64,000 nucleotides of DNA from contig OW028580.1 of assembly GCA_932294295.1 (NCBI GenBank), positions 38,613,836-38,677,835 on the forward strand, in the 5' to 3' direction. Origin of the DNA: Alitta virens. Lineage: Eukaryota; Annelida; Polychaeta; Phyllodocida; Nereididae. Below the pieces are notes generated by a model. The model worked only from the letters and a program-made list of their open reading frames with translations, ran no database searches and had not been told where the DNA came from. Below, one piece after another: positions 15,320-32,799 of the stretch (position 1 is the first letter of the stretch; each line of letters starts with the position of its first letter). The position numbers were made by a program, and so were the translations under genes.

Positions 15320-15519
15320 TATAAAAAGCCTGCCCATCATGACAGCAGCATCACTTCCAGTTTTTTGTTCTTTGAAAGAAGAAAAAAACTCTGCACGTCA
15401 CATCTCCAGGAGCTCTTCTTAGGACTCTTCTCTATGCTGCAGCAACACCAGGAATTGTTTTGAACTCTAGACCTCTAATCGCTCACCGAAAGGTCTACAC
15501 TTTTTTAAAAAAAAAAGGT
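15320..15519 (+). promoter_or_regulatory. Plus-strand TATA box with possible non-coding leader exon
   Basis: TATAAAAAG at 15320-15328 is followed, about 190 bases on, by a full-consensus splice donor AAAAG|GTAAGTGAC (donor GT at 15518-15519). Only tiny ORFs lie between them, so this looks like a TATA promoter and a 5' untranslated exon ending at 15517. The next plus-strand coding regions are the spliced gene (acceptor 22994) and POLB (possible acceptor 25268). Both have acceptor sequences just before their ATGs. The link is an inference from signals only. Confidence 0.4.
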
Positions 15520-16222
15520 AAGTGACTTACACACACACACACAATGATAACTATAGGTAAATTCGCTTATTGTATTTATCGTTCATTACCATGTCATTAA
15601 GATGCCGGCACGCCGACACGCTGTCAGTGGGCTAAGAACTATTGTAATATTGCATACATGCTGTTGAGTATTGCGATTTTATCATAATCGCTTATGCTGA
15701 AGGCATGCGGAGAACTATTGTAATATTGCGTGTATGCAGTGGAGTATTGCGATTTTATCAATATCGCATTAATGACTCAGCACCAATCCAATTGAGATTA
15801 CTATGCAGTAGAAAGTCATATCTTAAATGCTAAATACCACTTGTCCAGTGGCAGAGAACTATACTAATTTAAGTAAATTGCAATTAGTGTGCATTACTAC
15901 GCAACCAATGTCATGCGAAATCAGCTTAGTTGAGAGTAATATTAATAATAACTGCAACAATAATATTAATATATATAATTTTATTACCATTGTATTATCT
16001 CAATCGTTACATTTTTTTTTTTTTTTTTTGACTAAAATTTACAAATAACATATAAGAATAAAATAATGATAATAATAACAATAATAATAATAATAATAAT
16101 AACATTAAAAGTATTAAGCTAGTCATATATCTATATGTCTATATGACTATATGTCTATATTTCTATATTTCTATATATCTATATATCTATTTACAGTAAA
16201 TAATAATAATAATACAAATGTA
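15520..16222. other. Spacer with a 75-base-period duplication and ATA/TCTATA repeats
   Basis: AGAACTATTGTAATATTGC with its following 37 bases occurs at about 15636 and again at about 15711. (ATA)n and CTATATxTCTATAT repeats fill 16050-16215. On the minus strand AATAAA at 15985-15980 lies about 240 bases after the protease stop and could end the structural transcript. Confidence 0.5.
15980..15985 (-). terminator. Candidate polyadenylation signal after the protease gene
   Basis: AATAAA on the minus strand, about 240 bases past the protease stop codon, which is the last gene of the train. The surroundings are AT-rich, so a chance match is possible. Confidence 0.3.
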
Positions 16223-16726
16223 TTATACTGTGTCTCTGTATAGAGCCAGACAGTGTTCTTTCACATCCCGTATGTCTTTAAGTATATTTATAACACATTC
16301 GGGCTTAAAATTCCTACACCTATAATACAAGTAAGCTAGAGTGTAAAAACCACAATTAGCATCGGAAATGTGTACTCTACTGGTTGAACATGACACGAAT
16401 TGTCTCATAAACATGTTGATTTCTTCATTATAGCACTTCGCGCCCTGAGCATCGAAAACTTCAAGTCTTTGTCTCACATCACTGACATCAACATCAACAG
16501 CATTAGCATCCTCATCACGTCTACCACAGCTATGAATCCTCAGGAAAATCCAATGCCCGATGTCTCCACGTAAGTACGAGTTTTCATTACAATTCACGAT
16601 GTAGCATCCTTTCGTGTGCCTATTGACTGAAATGTATTTCAGAGCATTGCACGGTATGACAGCCATCACGCGTGACGATACCGTGACGTCATTCCACAGT
16701 ATTTTATATATTTGATCAGTGTTCAT
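16223..16726 (-). CDS. PRO: Adenain-like cysteine protease (capsid maturation)
   Basis: The 167-residue product has the order of the C5/adenain catalytic residues. His58 lies in RGDIGHWIFLRI, the acidic residue Asp92 in LEVFDAQG, and the nucleophile Cys125 in SDANCGFYTLAYLYYR, inside the NCGxxxL block typical of Ulp1/adenain folds. Such proteases cleave capsid precursor proteins during maturation of adenoviruses and, by inference, of Polinton particles. The length is normal for Polinton proteases. Its ATG overlaps the MCP stop codon (ATGA), so it is likely translated from the same message. No break is visible. Confidence 0.9.
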   Translation of the reverse strand: MNTDQIYKILWNDVTVSSRVMAVIPCNALKYISVNRHTKGCYIVNCNENSYLRGDIGHWIFLRIHSCGRRDEDANAVDVDVSDVRQRLEVFDAQGAKCYNEEINMFMRQFVSCSTSRVHISDANCGFYTLAYLYYRCRNFKPECVINILKDIRDVKEHCLALYRDTV

Positions 16727-18117
16727 GTCAGGTAGATGTTGCGAGCGTAGTCAATCTGGAATAAGCCCGGGTATGTCACTTTTGTTATCATGACAGCTGA
16801 TTCTGGTAAGGGCGACTTAAATCTGAGTTCTATTCTCACACAGCCATCTCGTGTGACAGGGTAGAAGTCACGGTAGTTCTGAGGTGCCAAGTCTATGACA
16901 AACAGACTGTAGCCTCCTTTGTATTCCTCTCTGGTGATCCGGGCTTCGCCGCTGAAGTTGGCCTTCCCCCTGTAAAGTTCCGAATAGCAGTGTATGTACT
17001 TGCCTTCGTCGAAGTCTATACTTAGAGGACCCGATGGCGTTGGCATGCCCGACAGACTCACATTGACGTAAGTGACGTCATAGTGCCTGAAATTGTATGG
17101 ATTTTTCCCCAGGCTGCCACTCATAGATTCACCTGACACAAAGCCCATCACTATCTTGCTAGGTATTCGTCCATTGTACGCATCCTCGATGTAATATGAG
17201 GAGGTGTCCTTGGCCAAATTAAATTTCCTTAATTCTTCTCTGGTGTAGAAATATTTTGCCTGAGAGATCTCCTCTTCCATGACTTTTTGATGCCCCAGTA
17301 GTACTAGATTTGAAGGTGTAACATGCTTGAGAATAAGCGTAATGTCCTTAATCTCAAGCTTGTAGTCTCTCCTAACCAGGCTCGATGACAGCAGCCTGAA
17401 GCTGTTCGAAGTCGGTGTAAGAGTCATGTCCATGGCCACTCCATTTAAAAGCAACTTGTTGACTTTAAAGACATCGACGTCTACTTTGCACAATAGCTCC
17501 ACCGTTTTGCTGCCACTCATGAGAGCTGCCCTTTTTCGAAATCCCAGATTGCCGCCATACATCAGACTCACATCGTCCATACATCGTGCTGTGTCCTTCT
17601 CGAACAAGGAGCATTCTAGCTCGGAGTCATTGAGATCGCCCTCTCCCAGCAGTGTGTTTATTAATGCCTTGTAGCTGTAGCCAGTCTGTCCACCCGTGAC
17701 CACCCTGTCGTTAAGTCGCACCTCTACCTGGTCCCAGAGAGCGTGTGCCAGGTTATTGACCACACCCACACTCCAAGACCCTTCAGTCTCAGTCTCTGCT
17801 TCCTCGGCAGCTGCAGCTGCATCTACAGGTGTTGATGTTTTTTTCTTTTTGCTGGTCCTTTCGGGGAGGGGGGATCCATCTTCTGTGACTATTCTCACCC
17901 TTGTTTTTATGTAAACACTAGACAGGTCTATGTAGGCTGTTCCTGCACCGGGGACATGGAATTTCACATCGCCCTCGGACGAAAATTGATTGATGGGCTT
18001 ATGCGTTAAATATTTAATGTCCGTCACTCCTAGGTTGCTGAGAGGTAAACTGAACAGATTAAGAGTGTCATCGTATGCCAGGTCTATTGATTCCAGTACT
18101 TTTTCACCGGCCGCCAT
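16723..18117 (-). CDS. MCP: Major capsid protein, double jelly-roll
   Basis: I chose the ATG at 18117 (AACATGG, 464 residues). The in-frame extension upstream would run into the preceding gene, and this ATG follows that gene's stop after one base (TAA-C-ATG). Blocks typical of metazoan Polinton capsid proteins are present: VNNLAHALWDQVEVRLNDR, then YSYKALINTLL, then LFEKDTA, then LLLNGVAMDMTLTP, and a C-terminal LFVIDLAPQ/VTRDGCVRIELRF part. The double jelly-roll fold is known for this family and is not visible directly. A Lys/Ala/Glu-rich loop (around residues 87-112, SKKKKTSTPVDAAAAAEEAE) is an insertion of low complexity. The capsid would be built from trimers of this protein. Confidence 0.9.
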   Translation of the reverse strand: MAAGEKVLESIDLAYDDTLNLFSLPLSNLGVTDIKYLTHKPINQFSSEGDVKFHVPGAGTAYIDLSSVYIKTRVRIVTEDGSPLPERTSKKKKTSTPVDAAAAAEEAETETEGSWSVGVVNNLAHALWDQVEVRLNDRVVTGGQTGYSYKALINTLLGEGDLNDSELECSLFEKDTARCMDDVSLMYGGNLGFRKRAALMSGSKTVELLCKVDVDVFKVNKLLLNGVAMDMTLTPTSNSFRLLSSSLVRRDYKLEIKDITLILKHVTPSNLVLLGHQKVMEEEISQAKYFYTREELRKFNLAKDTSSYYIEDAYNGRIPSKIVMGFVSGESMSGSLGKNPYNFRHYDVTYVNVSLSGMPTPSGPLSIDFDEGKYIHCYSELYRGKANFSGEARITREEYKGGYSLFVIDLAPQNYRDFYPVTRDGCVRIELRFKSPLPESAVMITKVTYPGLFQIDYARNIYLT

Positions 18118-18118
18118 G

Positions 18119-18532
18119 TTAACCGAAAATGTCCTTGATCCTAGTGATTTTTGCCTTCTTATTCTTTGGAGCACCGCTAGTCACTCTGCTCTGAGGAGTG
18201 TGAGGAGGTTGCTTTCTCTTCCTGGATCGCTGTGTCCCTGACGTAGCTGAGCTGCCGACTGAGCCAGCTGAGCCAGCTCCTACCCTTTTATCGCTTTCCA
18301 TGCGTAAATCAGCCTCGGCCATTTCGTTAGACTGACCTACCGGAGACACAATGGTAAGGGGTAAACTGACATTGGCTTTCTCTCCATGGGCGTCGCTGCT
18401 GCTACGAGGCTTTTTGATCACTACAGGCCTCGGCTGCGACGACAGTATGCTCGTGTGGCCAGCAGTTTTTTTAAAATGCTCTATCCAGGGTGCTGCATCC
18501 ATTGCTGCTAGGGATTTGTATCTCGCCTCCAT
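18119..18532 (-). CDS. Small basic Polinton protein
   Basis: Translation from ATG 18532 gives 137 residues; a longer reading would need a GTG start. The N-terminus has an aromatic/basic block (APWIEHFKKTAG), the middle is Ser/Gly/Ala-rich and probably disordered, and the C-terminus is strongly basic (RSRKRKQPP, NKKAKITRIKDIFG). A short basic protein ending in DIFG is found beside the capsid genes of other Polintons. A core or DNA-associated role, like adenovirus minor core proteins, is inference. It overlaps the penton gene by 25 bases in another frame and ends one base before the MCP ATG. Confidence 0.75.
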   Translation of the reverse strand: MEARYKSLAAMDAAPWIEHFKKTAGHTSILSSQPRPVVIKKPRSSSDAHGEKANVSLPLTIVSPVGQSNEMAEADLRMESDKRVGAGSAGSVGSSATSGTQRSRKRKQPPHTPQSRVTSGAPKNKKAKITRIKDIFG

Positions 18533-18969
18533 ATTAGTTCCAGAGTGCACTTGGTGGAATGTTTAGTTTCTTCGGCGAGCTCTGGTAGCAGGTTCCAGCT
18601 CGAGTCTCTCAGTTCAATGGAAATATGTCTCATGTCCTTCACTCTCAGGGGCGTGTAGAGTACTGAAGTGAAACGTGTGTAGTTGTGCCGTCTTATTTCT
18701 CCCAGAGCTATGGACCTGAGCACCGGCCTGTATGTGACACCCATCGCAACTCCCTCTACATGAGGGCATGTTACATAGACGACATCCCATTTGTTGGCAC
18801 CTGCACCCACTGGCGGCATGGCTATCTCGATCAGCCCCATGTACCACCGCCCCCTCGGTTCAGCACTTGAGGGTCTCGTAAATGACTCTGGCAGCTGTAC
18901 AGTAAACTTCCCCGCTGTGTTACTAGGGTTTATTTCTGGTGTCAAGTCACTAGCCAGATAAATATACAT
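18508..18969 (-). CDS. mCP: Minor capsid (penton-like) protein, single jelly-roll
   Basis: A 153-residue protein from ATG 18969. It begins MYIYLASDLTPEINPSNTAG, followed by FTVQLPESF and WYMGLIEIAMPP, the N-terminal pattern of Polinton penton proteins (xTVQLPxxxxLxGxWxVGLxEI). It ends with a strand-rich part (RHISIELRDSSW, CTLELIWRR). The single jelly-roll fold is family knowledge. It is expected to form the capsid vertices with MCP. It lies 67 bases after INT and overlaps the next gene by 25 bases. Confidence 0.85.
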   Translation of the reverse strand: MYIYLASDLTPEINPSNTAGKFTVQLPESFTRPSSAEPRGRWYMGLIEIAMPPVGAGANKWDVVYVTCPHVEGVAMGVTYRPVLRSIALGEIRRHNYTRFTSVLYTPLRVKDMRHISIELRDSSWNLLPELAEETKHSTKCTLELIWRRDTNP

Positions 18970-19036
18970 TTTGGTTCCTTTCTAGTTAAGATCCCCCTCC
19001 AAAGGCCTTTGCTTTGTTTTCATTTATTTATTTATT

Positions 19037-19891
19037 TTATTTTTTATGTTTTCTCTGTCTCTTCGCCTTCAGTGTCTTGATGTTAGAGCTAAGTAGCCAC
19101 TGGTTATATTTACTAGGCCATGATTGGTATTTAACCAGGCTTTCTTCAGCACCGTCACTCCTCATGCGTTTCTTGATCACTTTTTCTATCTTAAAGAAAG
19201 CGTCAGGGTCAAATTTCACAGGTGTCAGCTCGTTTGCGTAAAAAGGGCCATCAACATCATCACCCTGGTAGTCTAGGAGGTAGTAAATGGCTACTCCGTC
19301 TGAGAATTTCCTAGCTCTGATGGTGAATACTTCGCCTGTAAACTGCTCGTCGTAGGAGCGAAAAAAATTCGCTTTGCGATGGTATGACGCTCTGACCCTC
19401 TGTCCTAGTGTGAATTTGTATGGATTTCTTCTCTTGTTCCTGGCTGTGGAAATGGCACTCTTGAAGGCACGAGCTAAGTCCTTCGTATTTTGCTGAGTGA
19501 TGTATTGGTAGTCCCAAATTCCCTGTTCATTTTCCTCATTGACACTGTCAGGACTCACTCCAATACTCGAATGAATAGTTCTGTTGTACGAGTCTACTAT
19601 ATCCTGGAGTTCATCCAGATAGCTGTAGCTGTTGGTGTATTGGAAGTACTGGAACAGTCTCTTTTTAAGTCCTTTAATCGCCGCTTCGGCGTAGTTCGCT
19701 TTGGTTTCTGTATTAGTGAAGATGTGACTCACTCCCCTTGCTTTAAGTAAATCGCCGACACGAGAGTTTGTGAATTCTGTCCCCCTATCAGTGCGTATGA
19801 ACTTTGGCATTCCTGTGGCTTCTGCGTCTGATGCAGGCACTGACACTGTGGCTGCACCTGTACCTGCAGCTGTAGTAGCAGTAGCAGCGGC

Positions 19892-19937
<46 letters not shown>

Positions 19938-20347
19938 TTAAATATTTCCTGGAAGGCTTGTTCCATGTGTTTGGCACTTTTGCTTTTGACCGCTCGGGCC
20001 CTGCAGTATCTGGAGAAGACATCTATAGTTACCATGATGTAAGCGAACCCTTCATTAGCTCTCTTGAACCTTTCACCTGTCAGCACAAGTAGATCGCAGT
20101 CCCACAAGTGGTTCATACCAGGGGCTATGACTCGTCTATACTTTCGAGGCTTTTCTCGAGCTGACTTGTGCAAAGTGACAATGTCCTGCGACTGAGCCCA
20201 GTCTTCAATTCTACTCAGACTTATGTCATAGCGTCCTTCGCTCTTTATGACAGAGTGCAACTTTGATGCACTGGTGAAGCTACCAGGGGTCCTGTGATTG
20301 TAAAATCTACGTGATAAATAGGCGTCTATATCTCGGGGGAGCCCCAT
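19037..20347 (-). CDS. INT: Retroviral-type integrase with C-terminal chromodomain
   Basis: The 436-residue protein has an N-terminal helical region, an rve (RNase H-like) catalytic core and a chromodomain. Catalytic acidic residues are Asp85 in LWDCDLLVL, Asp187 in IRTDRGTEFTN and Glu221 in ANYAEAAIKGLKKRLF. The last two are 33 residues apart, near the D,D-35-E spacing. The chromodomain lies around residues 383-425 (IEKVIKKR, SLVKYQSWPSKYNQWL). The enzyme is expected to insert the element into chromosomes. Between the first and second Asp there is an insertion of 15 Thr followed by Ala/Thr/Gly residues (138-180), made by an ACT microsatellite. It follows the previous gene's stop after two bases (TAA-GG-ATG). 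Confidence 0.92.
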
Positions 20348-20349
20348 CC

Positions 20350-21312
20350 TTATTTAGCGCTGACCTTGGTCCACGATTTCCTGCTCCTCTTATTCGTTCC
20401 CCTGGCCACTCTTTTCACTCCGGTGTCTCCACCAAGTGCAGTGCCAGTGGTAGTGGTAGTGGCAGTGGCAGCAGTAGGCTCAGCCTCCTCAGACTCCAGG
20501 CTTAACCTCTTCCTCTTCCCCCTCTTCCCTCTCTTCACCTCTATGTATTCTTCTTCTTGTTCTTCTTGTTCTTCTTCGTCTACTGGGTATTTGTTCTTCA
20601 TATAATGTAATATTCTACGTAATTTAACGTTTGAAATTAAATTCAGAGGCACACCGCGTCGCAACATGAGCCAGTACAGTTTGTGATGGCCAGCTGGTAC
20701 TGCGAAAGCACTCGACTGAGTGTGCAGAACCAGATCGACGTAATAGCTTTCTCTCTTTGGCTCTCTTTGCCTCTCTCGCTCCGTTGACAGTAGATGCAGT
20801 ACGCTCCTGGCCTTGTCACGCAGGGTTTCATTTCTCAACTGAGCGTCAATTTTGCGAGTAATGCTATCAGTAGCACTCGAACTCGCACTCTCAGTCACGG
20901 GGGCAGGACCAGTGACTGAAGGAGCCGAAGGAGCTGAGGGAGCTGAGGGAGCAGAGGGAGCCGAGGGAAGAGAGGATGCGGTCTCAGTGGCCATAGCCAT
21001 CGAAGCGGACTGACTCAGATCTCTAGCTCGATGTCGCTCTCTATCTTGTCGAGTGGGCCAGCCGCTGGTCATTGTATTTCCATGGCGAACCGGCGGCCCC
21101 CCTTCCTCGAGGTGGCCTCCTCCTGCACTAGAAGCCGGCACTGTCCGTACCTCCCCCGACATTCGAAAGGAGGGCGACTGGCCCGCACCGCTGCCCCTGG
21201 CAGCGGCTGCGGCCAGTCGCCCGGCGTCATCCTGAGGGATTTGTTTGTTACTCGCCATCATGATGTCGTATTTTTCCTGAGGAATCACGTAAACCTTCCT
21301 GTTAAATTTCAT
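20350..21312 (-). CDS. Polinton protein of unknown function, basic with disordered middle
   Basis: I start at ATG 21312 because of its context ACCATGA and the conserved-looking first residues MKFNRKVYVIPQEKYDIMM; in-frame ATGs at 21321, 21324 and 21336 are possible. The longer open frame upstream only reads a GA microsatellite. The 320-residue product has an N-terminal VYVIPxEKY motif, a Ser/Ala/Pro-rich middle with SAPSAPSAPSAPS, a helical block (IDAQLRNETLRDKARSVLHLL), and a block LYWLMLRRGVPLNLISN followed by a basic tail. This arrangement resembles a protein found beside capsid genes in other Polintons, but its role is not known to me. It overlaps the upstream gene by 11 bases. Confidence 0.7.
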   Translation of the reverse strand: MKFNRKVYVIPQEKYDIMMASNKQIPQDDAGRLAAAAARGSGAGQSPSFRMSGEVRTVPASSAGGGHLEEGGPPVRHGNTMTSGWPTRQDRERHRARDLSQSASMAMATETASSLPSAPSAPSAPSAPSAPSVTGPAPVTESASSSATDSITRKIDAQLRNETLRDKARSVLHLLSTERERQREPKRESYYVDLVLHTQSSAFAVPAGHHKLYWLMLRRGVPLNLISNVKLRRILHYMKNKYPVDEEEQEEQEEEYIEVKRGKRGKRKRLSLESEEAEPTAATATTTTTGTALGGDTGVKRVARGTNKRSRKSWTKVSAK

Positions 21313-21898
21313 GGTAGCCATCATTGTCGACGTCATGTTCCTCCTCCTCCTCCTCCTCCTCCTCCTCCTCCTCCTTCTCCTCCTCTTCTTCCTCTTCCTT
21401 CTCTTTCTTATCTTTCTTATCTTTCTTATCTTCCTCCACCTCTTTCTTGCCTTCTTCTTCTTCTTCTTCTTCTTCTTCTTCTTCTTCTTCTTCTTCTTCT
21501 TCCTCCTCCTCATCAAGCAGACTTTTCAGGTGAGGAATGCAGTGTTCCAGGAACTCAGCAAGAGGTCTGTAGTGTGCCACGTAGAGCTCTTTCAGTGCCT
21601 TTCTAGAAGCAACAGTTGTCTTAGAGTTGTATGACTTTCTTGTGCTAGCTGACAAAGTTGAACCCGAGACTATTTTAGCCACTTTCCTCAGCAGCCCCTT
21701 GAATCTCGCCAACTCTAGATGGGGAGTACTGGAGATGACCAGATTGCCCTCTAGTGTATTGATGATCACTTCTGTTATGCAGAGAAGTTGATCCCTGGAA
21801 GCCTCAGCCAGTAATGAACGAGTAGAACGAGGAGCTAGTTTGTATGCTCGCGTCAGAAGCTCCAGAAAACCCATGCATCCATTTACTCTACTCGACAT
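21302..21898 (-). CDS. Small helical Polinton protein with acidic C-terminal tail
   Basis: The 198-residue product starts at ATG 21898, whose A is the last base of the ATPase stop (TAATG). The first ~130 residues are helix-rich: FLELLTRAYKLAPRSTRSLL, QLLCITEVIINTLEGNL, ELARFKGLLRKVAKIVSG. This matches a small protein common in animal Polintons, in which LL..A and N.L.G blocks precede an L..F...LR..A block; the function is not known. The rest is a long Glu/Lys/Asp tract encoded by GAA/GAG microsatellites, longer than I would expect for the family. Confidence 0.7.
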   Translation of the reverse strand: MSSRVNGCMGFLELLTRAYKLAPRSTRSLLAEASRDQLLCITEVIINTLEGNLVISSTPHLELARFKGLLRKVAKIVSGSTLSASTRKSYNSKTTVASRKALKELYVAHYRPLAEFLEHCIPHLKSLLDEEEEEEEEEEEEEEEEEEEEGKKEVEEDKKDKKDKKEKEEEEEEEKEEEEEEEEEEEEHDVDNDGYHEI

Positions 21899-22734
21899 TA
21901 TTTCTTAGTGTACAGAACTAGGGTCTCCCCTGGCAGAATGGAAGTGCTAAGTCGCACGTCCTCGTCACCTGAACTAGTCAAGTTGTTCACAACTAGGTAG
22001 CCTCGAGGTAGACGAGTTGCGTCTTCGTGTGCTTCGACTAGTCGCTTGGGAGTGCCGGGGAACATCTGTCGTGAGAGGAAGTGTATCTGCTGTAAGTCTC
22101 TGCATGTCTTCATCAATATCAAGTAGCTCGTATTGAGACTAATTGTGCGAGAGTAGCGCGACTGGTGGTAGACATTCTGAGATATCATTATGACCGAGAT
22201 ACGGCCGTGATGAACTTCTCTCGTAAAAAGAGAGCACATTTCGCTAGATTTACATATCTCATCCATTAGATCGTCCAGAATCACTAGATTGTTGCCCTCA
22301 TCACTTTTCAACTCTTCTATCAGCTCCCTAGTGGGTAAGCCGTGATGAAGAGTAAGATTAGGTACTTGAGCTTCGAGATCATGGAACTTTTTCTGGTAAA
22401 CGCCGTAAGCGTACAGTATCTTCTCCGGTGGTATAGTGTACATCAGCTTCGAGTTCCTCACTATAGATAGGGCCAGAACCGTTTTTCCAACCATCGATGG
22501 ACCAACGATTACTGTGGAGGAGGGTGATTCAAATTTAAAAAGAGATTCTTCTTCATTTCCTTTTTCATTTTTTTCTCGTTCTTCTTCATGACAATTGATA
22601 CCTTCGTTGCCCTCGGTCTCAGCCTCAGCCTCAGCCTCAGCCTCAGCCTCAGCCTCAGCCTCTATCTCAGCCTCAAAGTCCTCTTCCTCCTTCTCCTCCT
22701 CCTCCTCCTCCTCCTCACAATAGTGCCCATACAT
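21898..22734 (-). CDS. ATP: Genome-packaging ATPase (HerA/FtsK superfamily)
   Basis: The 278-residue protein has Walker A GPSMVGKT (77-84), Walker B NLVILDDL (148-155) and the sensor-like SVIMISQN (179-186). This is the A32-like packaging ATPase of Polintons and related viruses, expected to pump the DNA into the capsid. The core is of ordinary length. The first ~66 residues are an added acidic region made of Glu runs and an EAEAEA repeat from a GAGGCT-type microsatellite. It is the first gene of the minus-strand train and shares a 260-base intergenic region with the plus-strand spliced gene. Confidence 0.92.
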   Translation of the reverse strand: MYGHYCEEEEEEEEKEEEDFEAEIEAEAEAEAEAEAEAETEGNEGINCHEEEREKNEKGNEEESLFKFESPSSTVIVGPSMVGKTVLALSIVRNSKLMYTIPPEKILYAYGVYQKKFHDLEAQVPNLTLHHGLPTRELIEELKSDEGNNLVILDDLMDEICKSSEMCSLFTREVHHGRISVIMISQNVYHQSRYSRTISLNTSYLILMKTCRDLQQIHFLSRQMFPGTPKRLVEAHEDATRLPRGYLVVNNLTSSGDEDVRLSTSILPGETLVLYTKK

Positions 22735-22994
22735 GTTTGTTTTTAATCCTTTTTTGATAATATATATTTTTTTTTTGATCTAAGAACACTTGCCTCCTGA
22801 GTGTGACAGTGCTAACAGTAGTAGTAGTAGTAGTACACAGGGTCTGGTGCTGGCCGAGTGCCAGAGCGACAGAGTGACAGTGCTGGTGTGTGCGTGCGTG
22901 TGTGTCCGTGTGTTTTACGATTGTAACAGCCGATATAACTCGTTCTTCTTTTATATATATATATATATATATATAATTTTTTTTTTCTTTACAG
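22735..22994. promoter_or_regulatory. Divergent intergenic region between ATP and the spliced gene
   Basis: Probably holds promoters for the minus-strand gene train and for the plus-strand gene. AATATATATTTT lies just upstream of the ATP start, and AGT repeats, GT repeats and a (TA)n run at about 22954-22975 precede a strong 3' splice acceptor (TTTTTTTCTTTACAG, ending at 22994). The acceptor implies a 5' untranslated exon further left. Confidence 0.5.
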
Positions 22995-23010
22995 CCTCGC
23001 TTTACAGACT

Positions 23011-23717
23011 ATGAGGGAACTACGCAAGCTCCAGCTACTGGCCAATGGTCAAGGAGGAGCTACCTCAGCTCAGAGTGATCGGCATGAGGAGTCTATGGAA
23101 GTTGAAGGACGTGCTGACTCAACCAATCAGCCACCTACATGTATGCCCGAGGCTAAGGTTAAGGTCAATGTCAATGCCGAGGCCAAGGACAGTGTGGGCG
23201 TCAAGGACATGGATAAGCAGCCTATGCGAGTCCCTGGTCCTGTGATGACTTCCACTCCTAAAAAGTCTGCCGCTGTAGAGGGGAGTGATGGAGGTGTTAT
23301 TGGTGGTTGTGGGGGAGTCTTTCACAACCTAAATGAATCTAATAAAACAACACCACCTCCAACTCCTCCTCCTCCTGCCCAGCCTCTGGCTATGTCACCT
23401 CTCTGGCTTCGTCCAATGCCACCATCACCCCCTCCTCCCCCACCACCGAGTCCTGCAACACCTCATACAACACCTCACCAGGCCACTCACACTACTCCTG
23501 TTACTCCTCCTCCTCCTCCTCCTACTCCTAAACAGCTCCAGGAAGAAGAGGAAGAAGAAGAAGAAGAGCGAGAAGAAATGGAGTGGAGAGACTCGGATGC
23601 TGCTATCCTTGCTGCGGAGGCATGTATGCTGAAGGTGTGTATATCTATCTATCTATCTATCTATCTATCTACCTATCTATCTATCTATCTATCTGTCTAG
23701 CTATCTGCCTAGCTATA

Positions 23718-23758
<41 letters not shown>

Positions 23759-23769
23759 AGTATTATTGC

Positions 23770-23806
<37 letters not shown>

Positions 23807-24023
23807 TCATTTTTTCAGAGATACAGCCAGCAGCTCACATACCATCGGAAACGCGTCATGAAGCTTGAAAGTTTCATGTCGTGTTTTGGTAAAACAAAAC
23901 CGAATGATGGAGAGCCACCAATCAAAAAAGCGAAATTCACCCTGGCATCGACTGACAAGAAGGAGGCAACTGCTGTACTGACAGGGTAGGCCTGATTATT
24001 TAGACTGTTTACACACGGCGTAT

Positions 24024-24079
<56 letters not shown>

Positions 24080-24900
24080 TGTGTGTGTGTGTGTGCTTTA
24101 TTATTTAAGTAATTTTTTATTTTTAAAATTTTTTTTATTTTGTTTCCTTAACAGAAATACATTGAAAGCTGTGCCTACACCACGAGTGTTTAGGCGATCC
24201 AGGAGGGCACTAAATTTCGACAACGTACCCACTGATAACCTCCCTCTGTCTCGAGGTTCCGGTGCTGGTGACAGTGCCAGTGACGGTGTTAGTGCCTGTG
24301 TGACAGCTCGGGTGTACCCAGTTGTGAACGGGTGAGTTAACATAATTACTACTGCTCTCCATCTTTGGCATGTTATTACCATTATTATTATTATTTTTTA
24401 TAATTTTTTAATATACTGCGCTCACTCTTAATTTAATTTAGTTTAATTTAATTTAACTCATTTGATTAATTTATAGAGTTGTTGAAGATGGTGAGGTGGC
24501 GGGACCATCAGGAGCCTCAGCAGGGCCAGCCCTACAGCCACCCTGTATGTCAGACTCCTATCGGTACAGGTAAGCACAGCAATTTAATCAAAATGGAGTC
24601 AAAATCAGCATGAAATTTGCTCTCAATAAATAGGTGGAAAAAAACTTTACATTTACTAATTAGTGTTTTGATTGTTATTCCAGTGACATCAGTGATGCAG
24701 ATGATACCAGTGGCCTGAGCTTAGTTGCAATAGCACCCACTGAGGCTGCTGCTGCAGAGGTTGAGCCTGTAGTTTTGACTTGGGGTGAAGCTGAGGGGCA
24801 GGAGGAGGAGGAGGATGATGATGAAGATGAGTGCTCATGCTGCTCGGACAACCTTTCATGGTTGAAGGACCTCACCCTCCATGATTGGTCTGGCGAATAG
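23011..24900 (+). CDS. Unrecognised five-exon Polinton gene, proline-rich and acidic
   Basis: Coding exons: 23011-23634, 23819-23985, 24155-24331, 24477-24569 and 24684-24900. All junctions are GT-AG and the frame holds across all four introns (first phase 0, the rest phase 2), giving 425 residues and a TAG stop. An acceptor at 22994 sits 16 bases before the ATG. The first exon is disordered and Pro-rich with a Glu run. Exon 2 starts with a basic helix-like stretch (RYSQQLTYHRKRVMKLESFM) and PIKKAKF, exon 3 has FRRSRRALNF, and exon 5 ends very acidic with a CSCC motif and WLKDLTLHDW. Basic nuclear-type signals plus an acidic tail would suit a regulator, but I do not recognise the family. It lies between ATP and POLB, same strand as POLB. 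AATAAA follows at 25008. Confidence 0.75.
23635..23818 (+). other. Intron 1 of the spliced gene with microsatellites
   Basis: Contains (TATC)n, (AT)n and (ATT)n tracts between donor GTGTGT and acceptor TTTTTTCAG. The open frame runs on into the TATC repeat, which would create a spurious Tyr/Leu/Ser tail if unspliced. Confidence 0.75.
23986..24154 (+). other. Intron 2 of the spliced gene with (GT)n tract
   Basis: Donor GTAGGC, a GT run of about 70 bases (24025-24095), acceptor TTTCCTTAACAG. Confidence 0.75.
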
Positions 24901-25007
24901 TCAGTATTTTTTTATTTTTATTTTTTTTTTATCTGTATATAATTTTTTAATATTTCTGTCTGTATGTGTGTGTGTGTGTGTGTGTGTGTGGCTGCTGAGC
25001 TTTTTTT

Positions 25008-25013
25008 AATAAA
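25008..25013 (+). terminator. Polyadenylation signal of the spliced gene
   Basis: AATAAA about 110 bases after the TAG stop at 24900, preceded by a GT repeat and a T run. Confidence 0.6.
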
Positions 25014-25287
25014 TGATATCAATATAAGCAATGACTTTAATTTCTGTATAAACATTTCGCAATACGGGCTACACGAGTATGAGCTAAACAAAAAGCATGA
25101 GTAAAAGAAAATAAATAAAGAAAAAAGGTGGGAGTTACACCTCTAGACAAACCAAAAAAAAAAAAGAAGAAGATGTATAACTCATGAAAAAAAAAAAAAC
25201 TTTTTCTGCCTCTCCATCTTTTATTATTTATTTATTTTATTTTGTATTTTATTTTTTATTTTTTATAGTTTAAATGAAATACCAGCC
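25014..25287 (+). promoter_or_regulatory. Region upstream of POLB with possible 3' splice acceptor
   Basis: No gene. AT-rich, ending in a long T-rich tract and ATAG (AG at 25267-25268), 19 bases before the POLB ATG. This could be an acceptor for a 5' leader exon, or only AT-rich promoter DNA. Confidence 0.4.
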
Positions 25288-28200
25288 ATGGAGCAGGGGC
25301 TTGAAGGTCTACCACTATATGAAAAGCAAGGAGAGATGCTATTTTTAGATATGCTCTATGAGCGGAATATTATTGGTGGAGGCGATATATCTATGGAGAT
25401 CAATGTTGAGCAGGGGGCTGTAGAGGGGGCTGAAGGACTGGTACTTGATGAAAAACAGAGAGAGATGCTATTTTTAGACATGCTCTATGAGCAGAATATT
25501 ATCGGCGAAGGTGATATATCCAGGGGTGTCAATGTTGAGCAGGAGGCTGAAGAGGGGGTTGAAGGTGACATAGAACCTCACATGATTTTTGATGGCCCCG
25601 ATTATGTGGTGAATTTCCACAGGCATATTGAAGTAAGGAATGTTAAAGACATAGAGTTTGATGGGGGCATTGCTCGTGAGACGGTGTACAGGATTCATTT
25701 TAATGTTAACTGGGCCGGTGTAAATCTTCGTGATATCATGGGTGGACTCGAGGAGGTGCTAGAAGCAATTATTGCAAGGCTCCATGAGAGCTATAGCAGT
25801 CATGACCTTGTCAGATTTTTCATACAGAATGAGGCATTTTATAGCCCCCACACCACAGGCTTAATACCCCTCCATCAGCTCACCATTTTCAAGATCATTG
25901 AGCTCATGGAAAGTCTACTGCAGTCAGATGAAGACCTGTATTTAGATGAACCACTGGAAATTCATGTAGGCATCATCAGAAACCCCCTGGCAGCCGGTGT
26001 GAGCACTGGCGTTAATTACATAGAAGACCTACGTAGGCTGAAAAGCATATGCGAAATAAAAAACAGGGACAACCTATGCTTAGCCAGGGCTATAGTTGTT
26101 GGAGTGGCAAAGGCCAATGTTGATGCAACCCCAAAGACTGACAAACAATTGTATGAGAGTGCCCTGAATGAGTACAAAAGGGTTCAGCATGGTCAGAAAA
26201 AAGCTCAAACCATTGAAGCTCAGAGGCTACACACTGCTGCAGGATTTGACCTGAAATATGTACCATCTTTTACAGACATACCATCTTTCGAGAGAGTGGC
26301 TAACACGTGTGTGGTAGTTTTTGGTCGTGGTTCAAGTGCTAGGCCTCTCTATGTTGGTGATGATCACAGACAGAGAACTGTTTATTTACTGTACGAATGT
26401 GAGCCTCTAGATAAGAAGGCAGTAGGCCACTTCCACACCATAACTAAGGTGAACTGTATCTTCGCCAAGTCTTCCTTTTGTGAGAAATGTCTGAAGGCCT
26501 ATGATGCGAGATATGGTCACACTGGTTGTGACCAGTGCCCCTCGTGTAAAGGCGAGTCATGTGTGGTAATCAGCGCAGAGAAGCACAGCTGTCCAACTTG
26601 CAATCGCTTTATGCGCTCTGACGCCTGCAGCAGGCGCCATCATGAAAATGGTACCTGCTCCAGCTCCCACAGATGCAGAGGTTGCGGTGTGTTCCACAAG
26701 TCCGGCGATGATCATAAATGCGGTACTCGTGAATGCAGCATTTGTAAAAAGCTGGTGACTGGAGTGCATTTCTGTTACATCAGACAACAAAAACCAAAGG
26801 CTGTGTCTTGTAAGTACATCTTCGCAGACTTCGAAGCTGACCCCACGGGAAAATTTCATTTACCCAACCTGCTTGTAGCACACTGGGAGTGCTCACACTG
26901 CATCGAGCTGAGTTACCGTGACAACCCTCGATGCTCGCACTGCGGCACTGCATGTTCCAAATGCTCACCCAGTGTATCTGGTAATACACCCAGAGGACAT
27001 GATGAGCGTGAGCTGTGCATGAAAGGGCGTGACTGTGGTAGGCGAGGGGTGTCCTTTTTTGGAGATGATGCAGCCACAGACTTCTGTCAGTTCCTGTTTA
27101 GACGCGAATTTGAGGGCTACACACTCATTTTCCACAATGGCCAGGCGTACGACGCCTACTTTATGGCGAAATACATATTCAGCACAATGAGGAAGCTGCC
27201 GAGAGTCATCTACAGAGGCAGTAAAATTGTAGCTATTGATGCAGGGAAATTCCGTGTTATTGACTCCTTAAACTTCTTGACATTTCCTCTTGCTCAGATG
27301 CCCAAAGTCTTTGGTCTGAAGGGTGTTAAAAAGGGGACATTTCCAGTCTTTTTCAACCAGAAGGAAATGTGGGACTTTGTGGGCCCCATACCTCACCCAT
27401 ACTGCTACAGAGTGAACAGAATGAAATCAAATGCAAGGGAAGAGTTCATGGCCTGGTATAAGCAGCAGAGGGGCAAGGTCTTTGATTTCAAGAAGGAAAT
27501 AATGGCTTATTGCGAAGATGATGTCAACATTCTGCAGGAGAGCTGCAATGCATTCAGAAGCTGGCTCATAAGCATAACATCTAGAGAGGAAGTGGTAGAT
27601 GTGGGTGAAGGAGGAGAGACATTGTCTCAGCTAGTTGGCATAGACCCCTTCCAGTATAACACGCTGGCCAGTGTATGCATGGCAACTTATCGCCACATGT
27701 TCCTGACTGAAAAGTACTCGATCACCCTGGAAGACGACACCAAGGTTGTAGGGCACTTGCAAAATGCCCAGCTGAGTCTTGTAGGGCAGGATGGAAGAGC
27801 GGTGAACCCGAGTACAGCAGAGATAAAGAGCATGGAATTTGTTTCAACTCCCTTCGCTAGAATGCCCTCTTGTGGCTTCGGTGGACTTGACGCTCACAGC
27901 CGTGTATCAATCATCTGGCTTGAGTATGAAGCACTGACACGTGACTTGACCATTCTCCATGCACGCAATGGCGGTGAGCATAAGGTTATAAATCAGACAC
28001 GTGATGGATGGTTGAAGCTTGATGGCTATCACGTTGATCAGGTGACAGGCAAAGAGACTGCCTGGGAATTTCACGGCTGCGTGTACCACGGGTGCAGGAG
28101 GTGTTTCGGTGGTCCAAACACACCTGCCAATGTCAGACACCCTCACACTGGTGAAAGCCTGAAATCACTCTATAGGAGAACTGAGGCCCGACTTGTGTAC

Positions 28201-29715
28201 CTGAGAAGTGAGCTGAACATAGAGGTCCACGTCATGTGGGAATGTGAATTTAAACAGCTACTAGAGACGAGTGAGGCACTGAGGGAGGTTGAGCAAAACT
28301 GTGAACTGCTACCGCGACTGGATCCGAGGGCAGCTTTTTACGGCGGCCGAGTGAATGCTGTGAAGCTCTACCACGAGGCTCAGGAAGGAAAGAGGATAGG
28401 TTATGTGGACATTTGCTCCTTATATCCCATGGTCTTGAAAAATGATGTTTTCCCTGTTGGTATTCCAGAGGTGATCATTGACCCCCCTCCTCAGGATATT
28501 GGCAAGTACTTTGGCATAGTACAGGCACGCGTAAGACCTCCTAGAGGCCTCTACCACCCCTGCTTGCCACTGCGTGTTGGTGGGAAGCTCCTGTTCCCTC
28601 TCTGTAGTAGGTGTGCACGTAACTCATCACAGGAGCCCTGCAGGTGTCCGGACACAGAGCGTGACCTGGTAGGCACTTGGACTTCCATTGATCTGCGTGA
28701 TGCCCTCAGCGTTGGTTACACTATTGTTAAAGTATTTGAGATATACCACTTTGAGGAAACAGCCAAATTCGACAAGACCCAGGCCACACCGGGTCTGTTT
28801 TCTGATTACGTGAACTTGTTCCTGAAAGGGAAGCAGGAAGCATCTGGGTGGCCTTCCGATGACATGACTGACGCCGAGAAAACAGAGTATATAGACCAGT
28901 ATGAGTCTGTTGAGGGCATTCGACTTGACACACAGAACATTTCTTACAACCCCGGGAAAAGGGCCACAAATAAGCTTCTCTTGAACAGCTTCTGGGGGAA
29001 ATTCGGGGAAAATAATAATCACAGAACACACAAACTAGCTGAGACTGGGGCTGACATTTTCAAACTACTGGTCAACCCGTCTATCTCTCTCAAGGGCATG
29101 CACGTGCTGGATAGCAATCGTTGTATGCTCGAGTATACGCACACTGAAGGCTTCCTCCCTGAAATGCCTCATGTGAATGTTTTTATAGCTGCTTTCACAA
29201 CGGCTAATGCAAGGAGTAGACTTTTCAATGTCCTGCATAACTTAGGTCGTAGGGTTCTCTATTTCGACACTGACAGTGTTGTGTATGAATACACTGAGGG
29301 AGATACCACCCAATATACACCAGACATGGGGGACCATTTGGGGCAGTGGACAAATGAATTGAAGGCCAATCAGTTCATCTCGCGCTTTGTCAGCAGTGGC
29401 CCCAAATCATATGCGTACTTGACTAATGACGACGACCGGACCACTAAGCTCAAAGGGTTCACCTTAAATCACGAAGTATGCAAACTTCTCAACTTCGACA
29501 GTATTTGCAGACTAGTGTTGTTTTGGGCTGATCCAGACAACAATTCACTACCTGACGAAGAACAGCCGCGTGTGGAGGTACCATACAGTAAAATACGTAG
29601 AGACAAGTATGCTTTCAAGCTTTTTAATAGAGATGAGATTAAGAAATTCAGAGTAACCTACTCGAAGAGATGTTTAGTGCTAGGTACATATGACACCCTG
29701 CCTTTTGGTTTTTAG
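25288..29715 (+). CDS. POLB: Family B DNA polymerase, protein-primed type
   Basis: A 1475-residue open frame from ATG 25288, longer than most Polinton polymerases because of its N-terminal extension. Order: a 43-residue tandem duplication (residues 6-48 and 49-91), a Cys/His-rich zinc-binding region (about 395-500), the 3'-5' exonuclease motifs FADFEADP (about 511), FHNGQAYDAYF (about 614) and YCEDDVN (about 740), and FHGCVYHGCRRCF (about 928), typical of Polinton enzymes. Then come polymerase motif A DICSLYP (about 1040), motif B KLLLNSFWGKFGE (about 1228) and motif C YFDTDS (about 1325). All catalytic Asp residues are present. It should copy the linear element from a protein primer, as in adenovirus. 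No break is seen. Confidence 0.95.
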   Translation: MEQGLEGLPLYEKQGEMLFLDMLYERNIIGGGDISMEINVEQGAVEGAEGLVLDEKQREMLFLDMLYEQNIIGEGDISRGVNVEQEAEEGVEGDIEPHMIFDGPDYVVNFHRHIEVRNVKDIEFDGGIARETVYRIHFNVNWAGVNLRDIMGGLEEVLEAIIARLHESYSSHDLVRFFIQNEAFYSPHTTGLIPLHQLTIFKIIELMESLLQSDEDLYLDEPLEIHVGIIRNPLAAGVSTGVNYIEDLRRLKSICEIKNRDNLCLARAIVVGVAKANVDATPKTDKQLYESALNEYKRVQHGQKKAQTIEAQRLHTAAGFDLKYVPSFTDIPSFERVANTCVVVFGRGSSARPLYVGDDHRQRTVYLLYECEPLDKKAVGHFHTITKVNCIFAKSSFCEKCLKAYDARYGHTGCDQCPSCKGESCVVISAEKHSCPTCNRFMRSDACSRRHHENGTCSSSHRCRGCGVFHKSGDDHKCGTRECSICKKLVTGVHFCYIRQQKPKAVSCKYIFADFEADPTGKFHLPNLLVAHWECSHCIELSYRDNPRCSHCGTACSKCSPSVSGNTPRGHDERELCMKGRDCGRRGVSFFGDDAATDFCQFLFRREFEGYTLIFHNGQAYDAYFMAKYIFSTMRKLPRVIYRGSKIVAIDAGKFRVIDSLNFLTFPLAQMPKVFGLKGVKKGTFPVFFNQKEMWDFVGPIPHPYCYRVNRMKSNAREEFMAWYKQQRGKVFDFKKEIMAYCEDDVNILQESCNAFRSWLISITSREEVVDVGEGGETLSQLVGIDPFQYNTLASVCMATYRHMFLTEKYSITLEDDTKVVGHLQNAQLSLVGQDGRAVNPSTAEIKSMEFVSTPFARMPSCGFGGLDAHSRVSIIWLEYEALTRDLTILHARNGGEHKVINQTRDGWLKLDGYHVDQVTGKETAWEFHGCVYHGCRRCFGGPNTPANVRHPHTGESLKSLYRRTEARLVYLRSELNIEVHVMWECEFKQLLETSEALREVEQNCELLPRLDPRAAFYGGRVNAVKLYHEAQEGKRIGYVDICSLYPMVLKNDVFPVGIPEVIIDPPPQDIGKYFGIVQARVRPPRGLYHPCLPLRVGGKLLFPLCSRCARNSSQEPCRCPDTERDLVGTWTSIDLRDALSVGYTIVKVFEIYHFEETAKFDKTQATPGLFSDYVNLFLKGKQEASGWPSDDMTDAEKTEYIDQYESVEGIRLDTQNISYNPGKRATNKLLLNSFWGKFGENNNHRTHKLAETGADIFKLLVNPSISLKGMHVLDSNRCMLEYTHTEGFLPEMPHVNVFIAAFTTANARSRLFNVLHNLGRRVLYFDTDSVVYEYTEGDTTQYTPDMGDHLGQWTNELKANQFISRFVSSGPKSYAYLTNDDDRTTKLKGFTLNHEVCKLLNFDSICRLVLFWADPDNNSLPDEEQPRVEVPYSKIRRDKYAFKLFNRDEIKKFRVTYSKRCLVLGTYDTLPFGF

Positions 29716-30017
29716 ATGAAATTAGCTCAATTATCCTTAGCTTTACTCCCTCAAATCATCATTTTTCAAGCTCATAGATATAGTCAACACTGTAATTGCA
29801 TGAATCCACAACTGCGTATTAGCAGCACACTCCTTGCTTGGGGGTGTATATTGGTGTATTTTTTTTTAGTATGCTCGTTTAATGTATTATTGATTGATTG
29901 AGTGATTGATTGATTGATTGATTGATTGACTGACTGACTGACTGATTGCGGCTCATTATGTAAAATAGCTCAGTCTGTGAGATACTTACAAGTAGACTAG
30001 AAATATTCTGGTGGAGT

Positions 30018-30051
<34 letters not shown>

Positions 30052-30441
30052 TAGCATGTGAAAATTAACTCGTATGCAGGTAGAACAAAATAGATTTCAT
30101 TGTATGTGTACATCTGAGAATGAATTATACAATTACGGTTATTATTATTATTATTATATATCATCGGTAATTGTTATTATTATTATTACTATTATAATGT
30201 CAATACTGCAGAAATATTACAATTGACTATCAGTACTCAAATGTACTGTCATTAACGTGCTTCGGGTTAATAAATTACTGATTTTAAACATATTCACTTG
30301 GTTGTATTGTGTTGATTGATTGTTTGATTCCCATTCACTCAGTAGGCGGAAATGCTCCTGACCTCTGAATTGTAACTAAGGGTAACATGCTTCAGGTTAA
30401 TAAATTACTTATTTTAAACATATTCACATAGTTGTATTGTG

Positions 30442-30479
<38 letters not shown>

Positions 30480-30745
30480 ACCAGTCACTCAGTAGCCGGA
30501 AATGCTCATGGCCTCTGCATTGTAGCTAAGAGTGTGGAAATGCTCATGTCCTCTACATTGTAACTAAGAGTGAAATCATGAGCTAATAATTACACTGCTG
30601 ATTGAGATGCAAGAGTGTCACGGTGAAGCACCACCACAACCGCTTTACATACGAATCACCTGAGTGTTCCTAGAGTTGACCACAGTGAATATGAGGTGAA
30701 AGTTAAGTGCCTCCTATGCTTTTGGACAGCAGAAAATATTCCATG

Positions 30746-30793
<48 letters not shown>

Positions 30794-31035
30794 GATAGTA
30801 CAAACATTTCTTTTCAAGAGTGAAATAAATCACATTTCCATAAAACCTAATGAGATGTGATAGCCTTTTCATAATGAAATTCACAGGCACCCTTCTATTT
30901 TCTCTAGTGTAAAAAAATGGCACAAGGAGATAGATTCAAAGTTCAAATTTTTATTTTATTTCGTAAAAAAAAAAAAAACACAGTGAAGACAAAATGATAC
31001 AGCGGTGTCTCAGTTGTACATTGACTAAATACATA
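29716..31035. other. Spacer between POLB and the PC4-like gene
   Basis: Non-coding. It holds (ATTG)n runs (29885-29945 and about 30443-30478), poly-T runs at 30020-30050 and 30746-30792, and a 130-base-period direct duplication. AATAAA at 30269-30274 may serve POLB. On the minus strand AATAAA-type motifs at about 30947-30960 may serve the next gene. The two genes converge here. Confidence 0.55.
30254..30575 (+). repeat. 130-base direct duplication with partial third copy
   Basis: TTCGGGTTAATAAATTACTG and what follows, up to GGAAATGCTCCTGACCTCTG, starts at about 30261 and again at about 30391. The end segment (GGAAATGCTCATG, CTCTxCATTGTAxCTAAGAGTG) recurs a third time near 30536. Confidence 0.7.
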
Positions 31036-32094
31036 CTAGCTCGACATAGGTTGAGGAGCACTATTGGTAATTTTTGACTTCTTTACAATCTTTTGGTAGC
31101 AAAAATCGAGCAACCGAAAGGTCAATTCAGTAGGTGGTGACACAGTACATTGAGCAAGAGTTTCCTTGGATCTCTCAATTCCACCGATATACACAAATAT
31201 GTCATATACGTCGCTCATAAAATACAGTCTTTTATGGTTCAGGGATACAGCGATTCGCTCAGCAATCCTCAAGATATCATTTTTGGTCACTTTCAGTAGA
31301 GCATCCTCGATCTCATCACGAGTAGGGCACTGAAGCATCAAGTCGGACCATGAATGACCGGTTTTATCTAACACCTGATTGCAGAATACGTGCTCCAGAA
31401 TTTCCATTTTACTCGCTCGATGTACGTCCAATTCGATTATGACGTATTCGTACTTCTGGCCATCAGTGGGGAGCCCGGCGAGGTAGCCCTTGACACTGTC
31501 GTCGCAATCTTTACGAGTGGGGAATAAAGTGTGTGACTTCATTCCACGCATTTCGACACTCCACTGGTATGCCTTGACTGTAACTGCCTCTTCTGGATTA
31601 GCTGCATCTCCCTTTCCATCCTTTGGTGGAGTAATGATAACTTGGTAAATATTGTCCATAGCTCCGTGGAATTTTTCGTATTCTTCTTTGCGGAGATTAA
31701 TAGTTTTGCTGTGGTGACATTCACGAACGTCTGTGAGTGTTTCCTGCTCAGTTTTTGGATGTAGAAAGGAGATATAGTGCACTGGTTCCTTGTCACTCCT
31801 CTCGAACTTAGTGATCATCACGAATTGTCTCTTGGTTAGACTCAGCTGCTTTGCTTCACCCTTAACCAGGGCATTTTGAAATTCAGTAGAGGCCTCCTTC
31901 AGTTTCTCAAAGGACTTCTTTGCGATGTGTACATTCCTCCATTTGGATGTGTCACAGCTGTAGCGCGACACAGTGACATAACCTGACTTGTATTGCTGAG
32001 CAGCATGAGCGATTACTCGAGTGTGTTCTGACAAACAGAGAGTAAGTCCATTGGATCCCTGAGGAGTTTGAGTGTTCAGTTGACTGGCTGCCAT
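31036..32094 (-). CDS. Polinton protein, possibly PC4-like ssDNA-binding
   Basis: I start at ATG 32094 (ATCATGG, 352 residues). The longer open frame would begin upstream of a TATA box (TATAAA, 32181-32176) and so is unlikely. The N-terminal half shows two stretches that may be repeats of a PC4/p15-like fold. One is GYVTVSRYSCDTSKWRNVHI followed by KSFEKLKEAS; the other is RQFVMITKFE, then YISFLHP, then INLRKEEYEKFHGAMDNI. Polintons and adintoviruses often carry PC4-like ssDNA-binding proteins, but the match here is weak and by eye. The C-terminal half is unrecognised. The gene is convergent with POLB and has its own promoter. Confidence 0.55.
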   Translation of the reverse strand: MAASQLNTQTPQGSNGLTLCLSEHTRVIAHAAQQYKSGYVTVSRYSCDTSKWRNVHIAKKSFEKLKEASTEFQNALVKGEAKQLSLTKRQFVMITKFERSDKEPVHYISFLHPKTEQETLTDVRECHHSKTINLRKEEYEKFHGAMDNIYQVIITPPKDGKGDAANPEEAVTVKAYQWSVEMRGMKSHTLFPTRKDCDDSVKGYLAGLPTDGQKYEYVIIELDVHRASKMEILEHVFCNQVLDKTGHSWSDLMLQCPTRDEIEDALLKVTKNDILRIAERIAVSLNHKRLYFMSDVYDIFVYIGGIERSKETLAQCTVSPPTELTFRLLDFCYQKIVKKSKITNSAPQPMSS

Positions 32095-32175
32095 GATGTA
32101 CTTGTGTGTGTGTGTGTGTGCGTGTATCTTTTCAAGTGCTGAAGTGAATGCTTGAAGGTTGCTAGAGCTGAGGCA

Positions 32176-32181
32176 TTTATA
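32176..32181 (-). promoter_or_regulatory. TATA box of the PC4-like gene
   Basis: TATAAA on the minus strand in the context GAGTATAAATGCC, 82 bases before the chosen ATG at 32094. Confidence 0.6.
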
Positions 32182-32313
32182 CTCACTGTAGAGCATTCGT
32201 CGGAAGGACGTCTATGCTGTAGGGTATGTCTCATTGATATATTCACGGCATCATGAGCTTTGACCAATCATAGTGCATGAATGAAAAAACAAATAGCCTC
32301 AAGGGTGCAGACA

Positions 32314-32649
32314 CTAGCGCCGCCTCTTGGACAGCGTCGGAGCCGGCAGCATTATTCCCATGGATGAGGACAAGAGAGCAGTCCACAAATTACTATCTCC
32401 ATTACCAAGAGACAGATTGACTATGCATGTAAGGATGACAATGTAGAGAATTACAACTTGACAAATAAAAATCACTTCATTTTTGGGTATGATGCGTCCG
32501 AATATCTCCCACTGACTATAGCTCCTGGTAGAGTTCATGTCCACATTGCTTGAAATTAGTGCGTCATGAAAATGTTCAGTATTTTCATGTTTAACCTCTG
32601 TAGGTACAGCAGCAGAGAGGTATTTTTCTGTTACGTCCTCACCCTCCAT
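32314..32649 (-). CDS. Short Polinton membrane protein
   Basis: A 111-residue protein from ATG 32649; an upstream extension would need a TTG start. The N-terminal half is hydrophilic. The C-terminal half has IFGRIIPKNEVIFICQV leading into a transmembrane helix (VVILYIVILTCIVNLSL), then LWTALLSSSMGIMLPAPTL and a basic end. This P-x-EIxFxxQ / IYIVI / LWTALLSS / LP-P pattern recurs in animal Polintons; the function is unknown and a virion or membrane role is inferred. The tandem array starts 73 bases upstream of the ATG, so its original promoter and the element's right end may have been displaced. Confidence 0.75.
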   Translation of the reverse strand: MEGEDVTEKYLSAAVPTEVKHENTEHFHDALISSNVDMNSTRSYSQWEIFGRIIPKNEVIFICQVVILYIVILTCIVNLSLGNGDSNLWTALLSSSMGIMLPAPTLSKRRR

Positions 32650-32721
32650 GGTTGTAAGATAAACTGAACAGCAATACTCACTACAACCATTCTTATTCAA
32701 GTTCTTATTATTTTCATTATT

Positions 32722-32768: not shown

Positions 32769-32799
<31 letters not shown>

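Follow-up and report, generated by a model that had tools for sequence, protein, structure and literature searches.

A five-exon gene conserved beside PolB in Polintons of Alitta virens and its possible place in a spliced transcription unit

Introduction

Among the described systems closest to the locus reported here, the pTP and polymerase of human adenovirus have a common leader or start exon, and the LXCXE pRb-binding motif is typical of oncoids. In the excerpts of PMC7851563 and PMC9962806 considered here, the adenovirus pTP and polymerase transcripts are described as rare, and the shared start exon does not appear. The tern atadenovirus report annotates for pTP a first exon of 15 nt, 2.7 kb from the main exon, which is the authors' prediction and needs confirmation from mRNA; its table gives pTP as the split gene and lists the polymerase as one piece. 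Papillomavirus E1, which is tied to DNA replication, possesses a nuclear localization signal (NLS), a CRM1 export signal, CDK sites and an RXL motif (PMC5398564). The adintoviruses are defined in PMC11071296, which presents the oncoids of Buck and colleagues as a class whose sole defining feature is their short linear motifs of interest.

Intact vertebrate Mavericks are reported to contain eight intronless ORFs, or seven in Xenopus tropicalis, and the terminal-protein domain of polintons has been reported inside PolB (PMC11071308). Titles and abstracts on spliced or accessory Polinton genes, a comparison to which the founding adintovirus paper did not belong, included none describing the gene reported below; a prior description may exist elsewhere.

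The window, i.e., the whole stretch of 64,000 nucleotides analyzed here, lies on contig OW028580.1 of the Alitta virens assembly GCA_932294295.1 (forward strand, positions 38,613,836 to 38,677,835). A first-pass annotation made from the sequence alone had proposed an unrecognized multi-exon gene inside a Polinton in this window, and the present analysis evaluates the gene, its relatives in the same genome and its relation to the neighboring PolB.

Results

The gene is located within a Polinton copy bounded by terminal inverted repeats and a target duplication:

10504..59803, no strand assigned, Polinton copy holding the gene, including a satellite array

The inverted repeats (10498-10622 and 59682-59807), with ends ACTACGTAAG... 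at 10504 and ~59800, show 84% identity in the window, and the 6-bp target duplication is AATTTC, provided that the right end has one extra AGT. A sister copy on C5 has inverted repeats of 85% identity over 120 columns and the target duplication GAGGGA. The right end of the window's copy contains ~26.8 kb of satellite-like tandem repeats (~32724-59571), in which some units 2,108 bases apart are 100% identical; the C5 sister copy is without this array, which is therefore not part of every copy. Pfam analysis identified an integrase with a chromodomain (rve PF00665, 2.7e-11; PF00385, 1.7e-06), a candidate packaging ATPase (Pox_A32, 21 bits, under the cut-off of 22.8) and a candidate capsid protein (PF21738, 16.2 bits, E 0.0062, under the cut-off of 27). 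The 175-aa ORF at 16226-16750 had no Pfam match, and no match to an adenovirus-type cysteine protease was found among the ten ORFs given to Pfam. The 391-aa ORF at 31036-32211 on the minus strand also had no Pfam match; a DNA segment spanning the greater part of it is conserved at ~75% at loci of another Polinton family, and it is probably a further uncharacterized gene of the element, as judged from this conservation. The presence of PolB, an integrase, a putative capsid protein, a putative ATPase, inverted repeats and a 6-bp duplication is shared with the vertebrate Maverick/Polinton elements, which differ from the present element in that the latter has four introns conserved in five families and a PolB with a 5′ splice acceptor.

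Rebuilding of the gene from the sequence reproduced to the base the structure first proposed, with ATG 23011, four GT-AG introns of 184, 169, 145, and 114 nt whose phases (0,2,2,2) agree, and a frame of 425 residues ending in TAG (24898-24900). The AATAAA noted about 110 bases further on was located 108 nt past the stop. The features are as follows:

23011..23634, plus strand, exon 1; proline-rich, with the start of a conserved helix-like block
23635..23818, plus strand, intron 1, phase 0
23819..23985, plus strand, exon 2; RYSxQLxYHRKxVxKLESFM and a KKAK-type NLS-like motif
23986..24154, plus strand, intron 2, phase 2
24155..24331, plus strand, exon 3; RRxLxF, cyclin-docking-like
24332..24476, plus strand, intron 3, phase 2
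24477..24569, plus strand, exon 4; VEDGEVAGPSG block
24570..24683, plus strand, intron 4, phase 2
24684..24900, plus strand, exon 5; acidic, with the C-terminal end (F/L)SW(L/M)xDLxLxD and the stop TAG
24898..24909, plus strand, TAGTCAGTATTT, the stop and the 9 nt that follow; 45 of the 49 fetched loci
25008..25013, plus strand, AATAAA, probable poly(A) signal of the five-exon gene

With a generic donor matrix, donors 1, 3, and 4 were among the highest-scoring 1% of the 3,427 GT sites in the window, and donor 2 (score 6.17) fell between the 2% and 5% cut-offs. The TAGTCAGTATTT stretch, although nine of its bases are noncoding, was found across all five families described below, and was missing only in L017, L037, L043, and L044.

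Searches of the worm's own genome covered 671 Mb in 23 contigs. Exon 1 was present in 17 further copies at 91-100% identity, in one degraded copy (L026, which was excluded from the splice-site and frame counts) and in a diverged group. All five exons were found in order in the 17 near copies, and the eight intron dinucleotides were all intact in 16 of them, the exception being L025, in which most of exon 2 is deleted together with acceptor 1. The frame was fully open in 13 of the 17, being broken by a frameshift in L021 and by internal stops in L022, L024, and L025. Of 37 exon indels relative to the window, 36 had a length divisible by three, as against 18 of 75 intron indels (17 near copies; Fisher p 1.6e-14), a probability that serves as a guide only because the copies are related, indels are shared and the cases are not independent.

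To place the gene among further Polintons, PolB was searched in the same genome, which gave 86 scored matches among 1,377 candidates, falling into groups of about 97-100, 83-85, 82-83, and 79-80% identity; many of these scored candidates have long open frames and near-identical copies. Judging from these sequences, Polintons look numerous and recently active in the genome. From 49 fetched loci, four further groups were represented by one gene model each (L034, L056, L041, and L047), and each model showed the same five exons 5′ of PolB with phases 0,2,2,2, encoding products of 363, 402, 412, and 349 residues, respectively. The eight dinucleotides were complete in 27 of 31 loci of these four families (misses: L037, L038, L043, and L044), and 24 of 31 had an uninterrupted reading frame closed by one stop at its end (additional misses: L027, L036, and L040); both counts include the four reference models as built. 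Near-identity is common among the F2 and F4 copies, which are therefore not independent counts. Three of the eight F3 loci are without the 5′ part of the gene, with similarity to L041 starting at exon 5 (L038) or before exon 4 (L043 and L044), and some PolB copies therefore persist without the 5′ exons. No intronless (processed) copy was seen among 143 own-genome matches (99 of 1,519 candidates scored). These matches stay within one exon, give or take about ten residues, except for C6:11542803, which runs ~20 residues beyond exon 2 and has a stop inside; the fetched copies among them adjoin PolB.

Comparison of the window with L034 over 328 codons gave a dN/dS of 0.30 (dS 1.43). On the evidence of these alignments, purifying selection has maintained exons 1-5 as one coding frame across the five Polinton families. 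The gene is thus not missing from closely related copies, an outcome that the first-pass annotation had set against itself, but is present in 17 near copies and four other families, and the five-exon gene is almost certainly real. The proposal of an unrecognized multi-exon gene in a Polinton is supported, as the element is flanked by inverted repeats and a 6-bp target duplication and the gene is retained in five families.

The coding signal extends 5′ of the ATG:

22995..23010, plus strand, 16 nt before the ATG, in frame (x)LALQT, with an acceptor AG at 22993-22994

Across one sequence from each of the five families (ten pairs, the acceptor AG being counted in the split codon), this stretch gave pS 0.62 and pN 0.17 in frame, as against 0.34/0.28 and 0.24/0.31 in the other frames; the test is short and based on five related sequences. 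Of 50 sequences, the window among them, 45 matched a pattern fixing its length and six bases, the residues before Met being LALQT, LASRA, or LASQA; L024, L027, L038, L043, and L044 did not match. As the 16 nt vary like codons and are preceded by an acceptor, an in-frame exon upstream of ATG 23011, joined in phase 2, probably exists, and on the same sequence evidence it is likely that the five-exon gene belongs to a larger spliced unit. All five exons originally proposed are conserved, but their count is probably too low, since the coding signal reaches the upstream acceptor. A search for this exon 0 in the 700 nt 5′ of the acceptor showed no ATG-donor pair shared by the five families compared, and the candidate upstream donors across the window's element were unconvincing. 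A stretch of ~42 bases at 22781-22822 looks identical by eye in the degraded copy L026, the surroundings being only ~76% identical between the two; it is possibly a promoter element, to go by this identity.

The adjacent PolB belongs to the viral/organellar-type family-B polymerases (DNA_pol_B_2, PF03175, 5.7e-38), and its coding region begins with a splice acceptor:

25267..29715, plus strand, PolB acceptor AG (25267-25268) and coding exon, in frame from 25270, phase 2

PolB, which had been taken as intronless, thus has an acceptor at its 5′ end. Its first ATG in the window (25288-25290) is absent in 25 of 47 sequences, L019, L021, and L037 having given no match and standing outside the 47. 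The 26 codons after the acceptor showed pS 0.54 and pN 0.20 in frame, as against 0.38/0.28 and 0.27/0.29 in the other frames, in a comparison of F1-F4 and L026 from which F2b was omitted for its different length. The distance from the stop of the five-exon gene to the PolB acceptor is 133 nt in F3 and 273-368 nt in the other four families, and the F3 distance leaves little space for PolB to have a promoter and start exon of its own. The phase-2 acceptors of both genes, together with the absence of the PolB ATG from many sequences, suggest that the two probably form one alternatively spliced unit; that the putative unit includes PolB is considered fairly likely. The N-terminal coding part of PolB is also duplicated in the window, as a 141-bp direct repeat of 83% identity (25296-25565).

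Alignment of the five family products showed 69 of the 425 positions to be invariant. Conservation is highest in exon 2, where 20 of 56 residues are invariant, and the most conserved blocks are HRKxVxKLES, the Pro-run, VEDGEVAGPS, RYSxQLxYHR, SWLxDLxL, and EPPxKKAK. The VEDGEVAGPS and KLES blocks, RRxLxF and the hydrophobic C-terminal spacing are at aligned positions in all five products, and RRxLxF supplies four of the six invariant residues of exon 3. By sequence match, RRxLxF is a candidate cyclin-docking motif, and the C-terminus, within an acidic stretch, fits the spacing of a leucine-rich export signal. Arg-X-Leu is given as a cyclin-binding motif in the literature. An RxL match occurs in 17-33% of shuffled proteins and export-like spacing in 25-49%, so that the weight of these motifs comes only from their conservation at aligned positions. 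The CDK-like motif [ST]Px[KR] is found in four of the five families, as expected by chance, and LXCXE in one (two matches in L056). The C-terminus is acidic and rich in leucine. The CSCC reported at first in the acidic end is confined, among the five families, to that of the window, and a metal site at CSCC is accordingly rejected. The composition suggests that the product is probably mainly disordered.

Homology searches returned no relatives. A single-protein search with residues 205-425 (3,080 word-sharing candidates) and a five-family profile search (7,994), both against 5.8 billion proteins, gave none at E<=1; candidates had to share five-residue words and have similar length, and relatives predicted as intronless would be missed. 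The profile search of the spliced product that had been advised was carried out, and found no relatives among the scored candidates. PDB sequences gave nothing better than E 0.086. The window's product had no Pfam match at E<=1; the matches of other family members (New_glue in two, best E 0.0058; Ribosomal_60s in one, 0.019; others worse) are weak and look like composition. Viral contig scans showed no relatives of PolB or of the product of the five-exon gene, and one scan of genome contigs no relatives of PolB; such scans carry little information. A terminal protein, suggested by the place beside PolB, was considered but set aside, as that domain is reported inside PolB and the match to PF02459 Adeno_terminal (E 0.49 in one of five members) is likely due to chance.

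Discussion

With moderate confidence, the gene may be regarded as the regulatory arm of a spliced rightward Polinton transcription unit. In such a unit, exon 0 would lie upstream and supply the start codon. Joined to exon 1, it would give the regulator protein, with its own poly(A) site; joined to the PolB exon, directly or via exons ending in phase 2, it would give the polymerase, and one unit would yield either product by alternative splicing. That the product regulates the element is plausible from its conserved motifs, and the favored view of its nature, a nuclear regulator linked to cyclin, is a tentative one drawn from these motifs. The regulator would bind cyclin via RRxLxF, its TP sites would be phosphorylated, the KKAK signal would bring it into the nucleus, and the acidic C-terminus would act as an export signal or activation domain; it would thereby couple expression or replication of the element to S phase.

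The alternative that fares best, though it is considered unlikely, is a separate five-exon gene with its own promoter just 5′ of ATG 23011 and an unrelated 5′ exon for PolB; the protein would be the same, with no splicing link. Each of the five families retains ATG 23011, preceded by a purine at -3, and this codon may therefore be the true start; TATA-like repeats are present 5′ of exon 1, and AATAAA stands between the two genes. However, a promoter at that place does not agree with the codon-like, acceptor-bounded variation of the 16 nt before the ATG, and the 133 nt in F3 also speak against independence of the two genes.

A Rev-/E4-like RNA export factor, whose basic region would bind element RNA and whose C-terminal leucines would recruit CRM1, is rather doubtful, and is compatible with the spliced-unit reading. 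The spacing of LSWLKDLTL or FSWLNDLNL in all five families, which resembles the Rev signal, and the basic stretches are consistent with such a factor, but Pfam gave no RNA-binding domain match and the spacing is as common in shuffled proteins as stated above. It is improbable that exons 1-4 serve mainly as 5′ exons of a long PolB isoform and encode its N-terminus, with exon 5 as an alternative ending. Phase 2 is common to donors 2-4 and the PolB acceptor, which keeps every such joint in frame, but a phase match has a one-third chance. Moreover, the five families all conserve exon 5 in frame together with its stop, and in the window AATAAA comes after it, so that the short form should exist. 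Capture of a host gene by the Polinton, raised at first and in keeping with spliceosomal introns being usual in host genes and reportedly not observed in intact vertebrate Mavericks, is very improbable and is dismissed as unsupported: the candidates scored out of 5.8 billion proteins included no homologue, the window's product has no Pfam domain, and the gene keeps its position relative to PolB in all five divergent families.

The spliced-unit reading can be compared with the known systems. The adenovirus E2B region is similar in that a replication gene of a PolB virus, namely the tern atadenovirus pTP as predicted in that report, has its start on a short distant exon; it differs in that the Polinton neighbor gene is no known terminal protein, and no sequence likeness was found. 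The Polinton product has, as predicted motifs, the same set as papillomavirus E1, but it shows no match to a helicase domain and no homology was found. Unlike oncoids, four of the five families of the product are without LXCXE. A broader proposal, held more tentatively still, is that the animal Polintons of this clade might possess an ancient switch in which one promoter and start exon lead to either a cyclin-docking regulator or a protein-priming polymerase.

If the gene and its splicing are as described, Polintons and adintoviruses annotated from ORFs may have genes overlooked and the start of PolB misplaced, and nuclear, splicing-dependent expression resembling that of adenoviruses would be indicated. 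If the switch is true, it would be a counterpart of adenovirus E2B, and annotation that assumes no introns would have overlooked where PolB truly starts as well as an entire family of genes. With the conserved motifs, it becomes possible to test directly whether an endogenous virus is under cell-cycle control.
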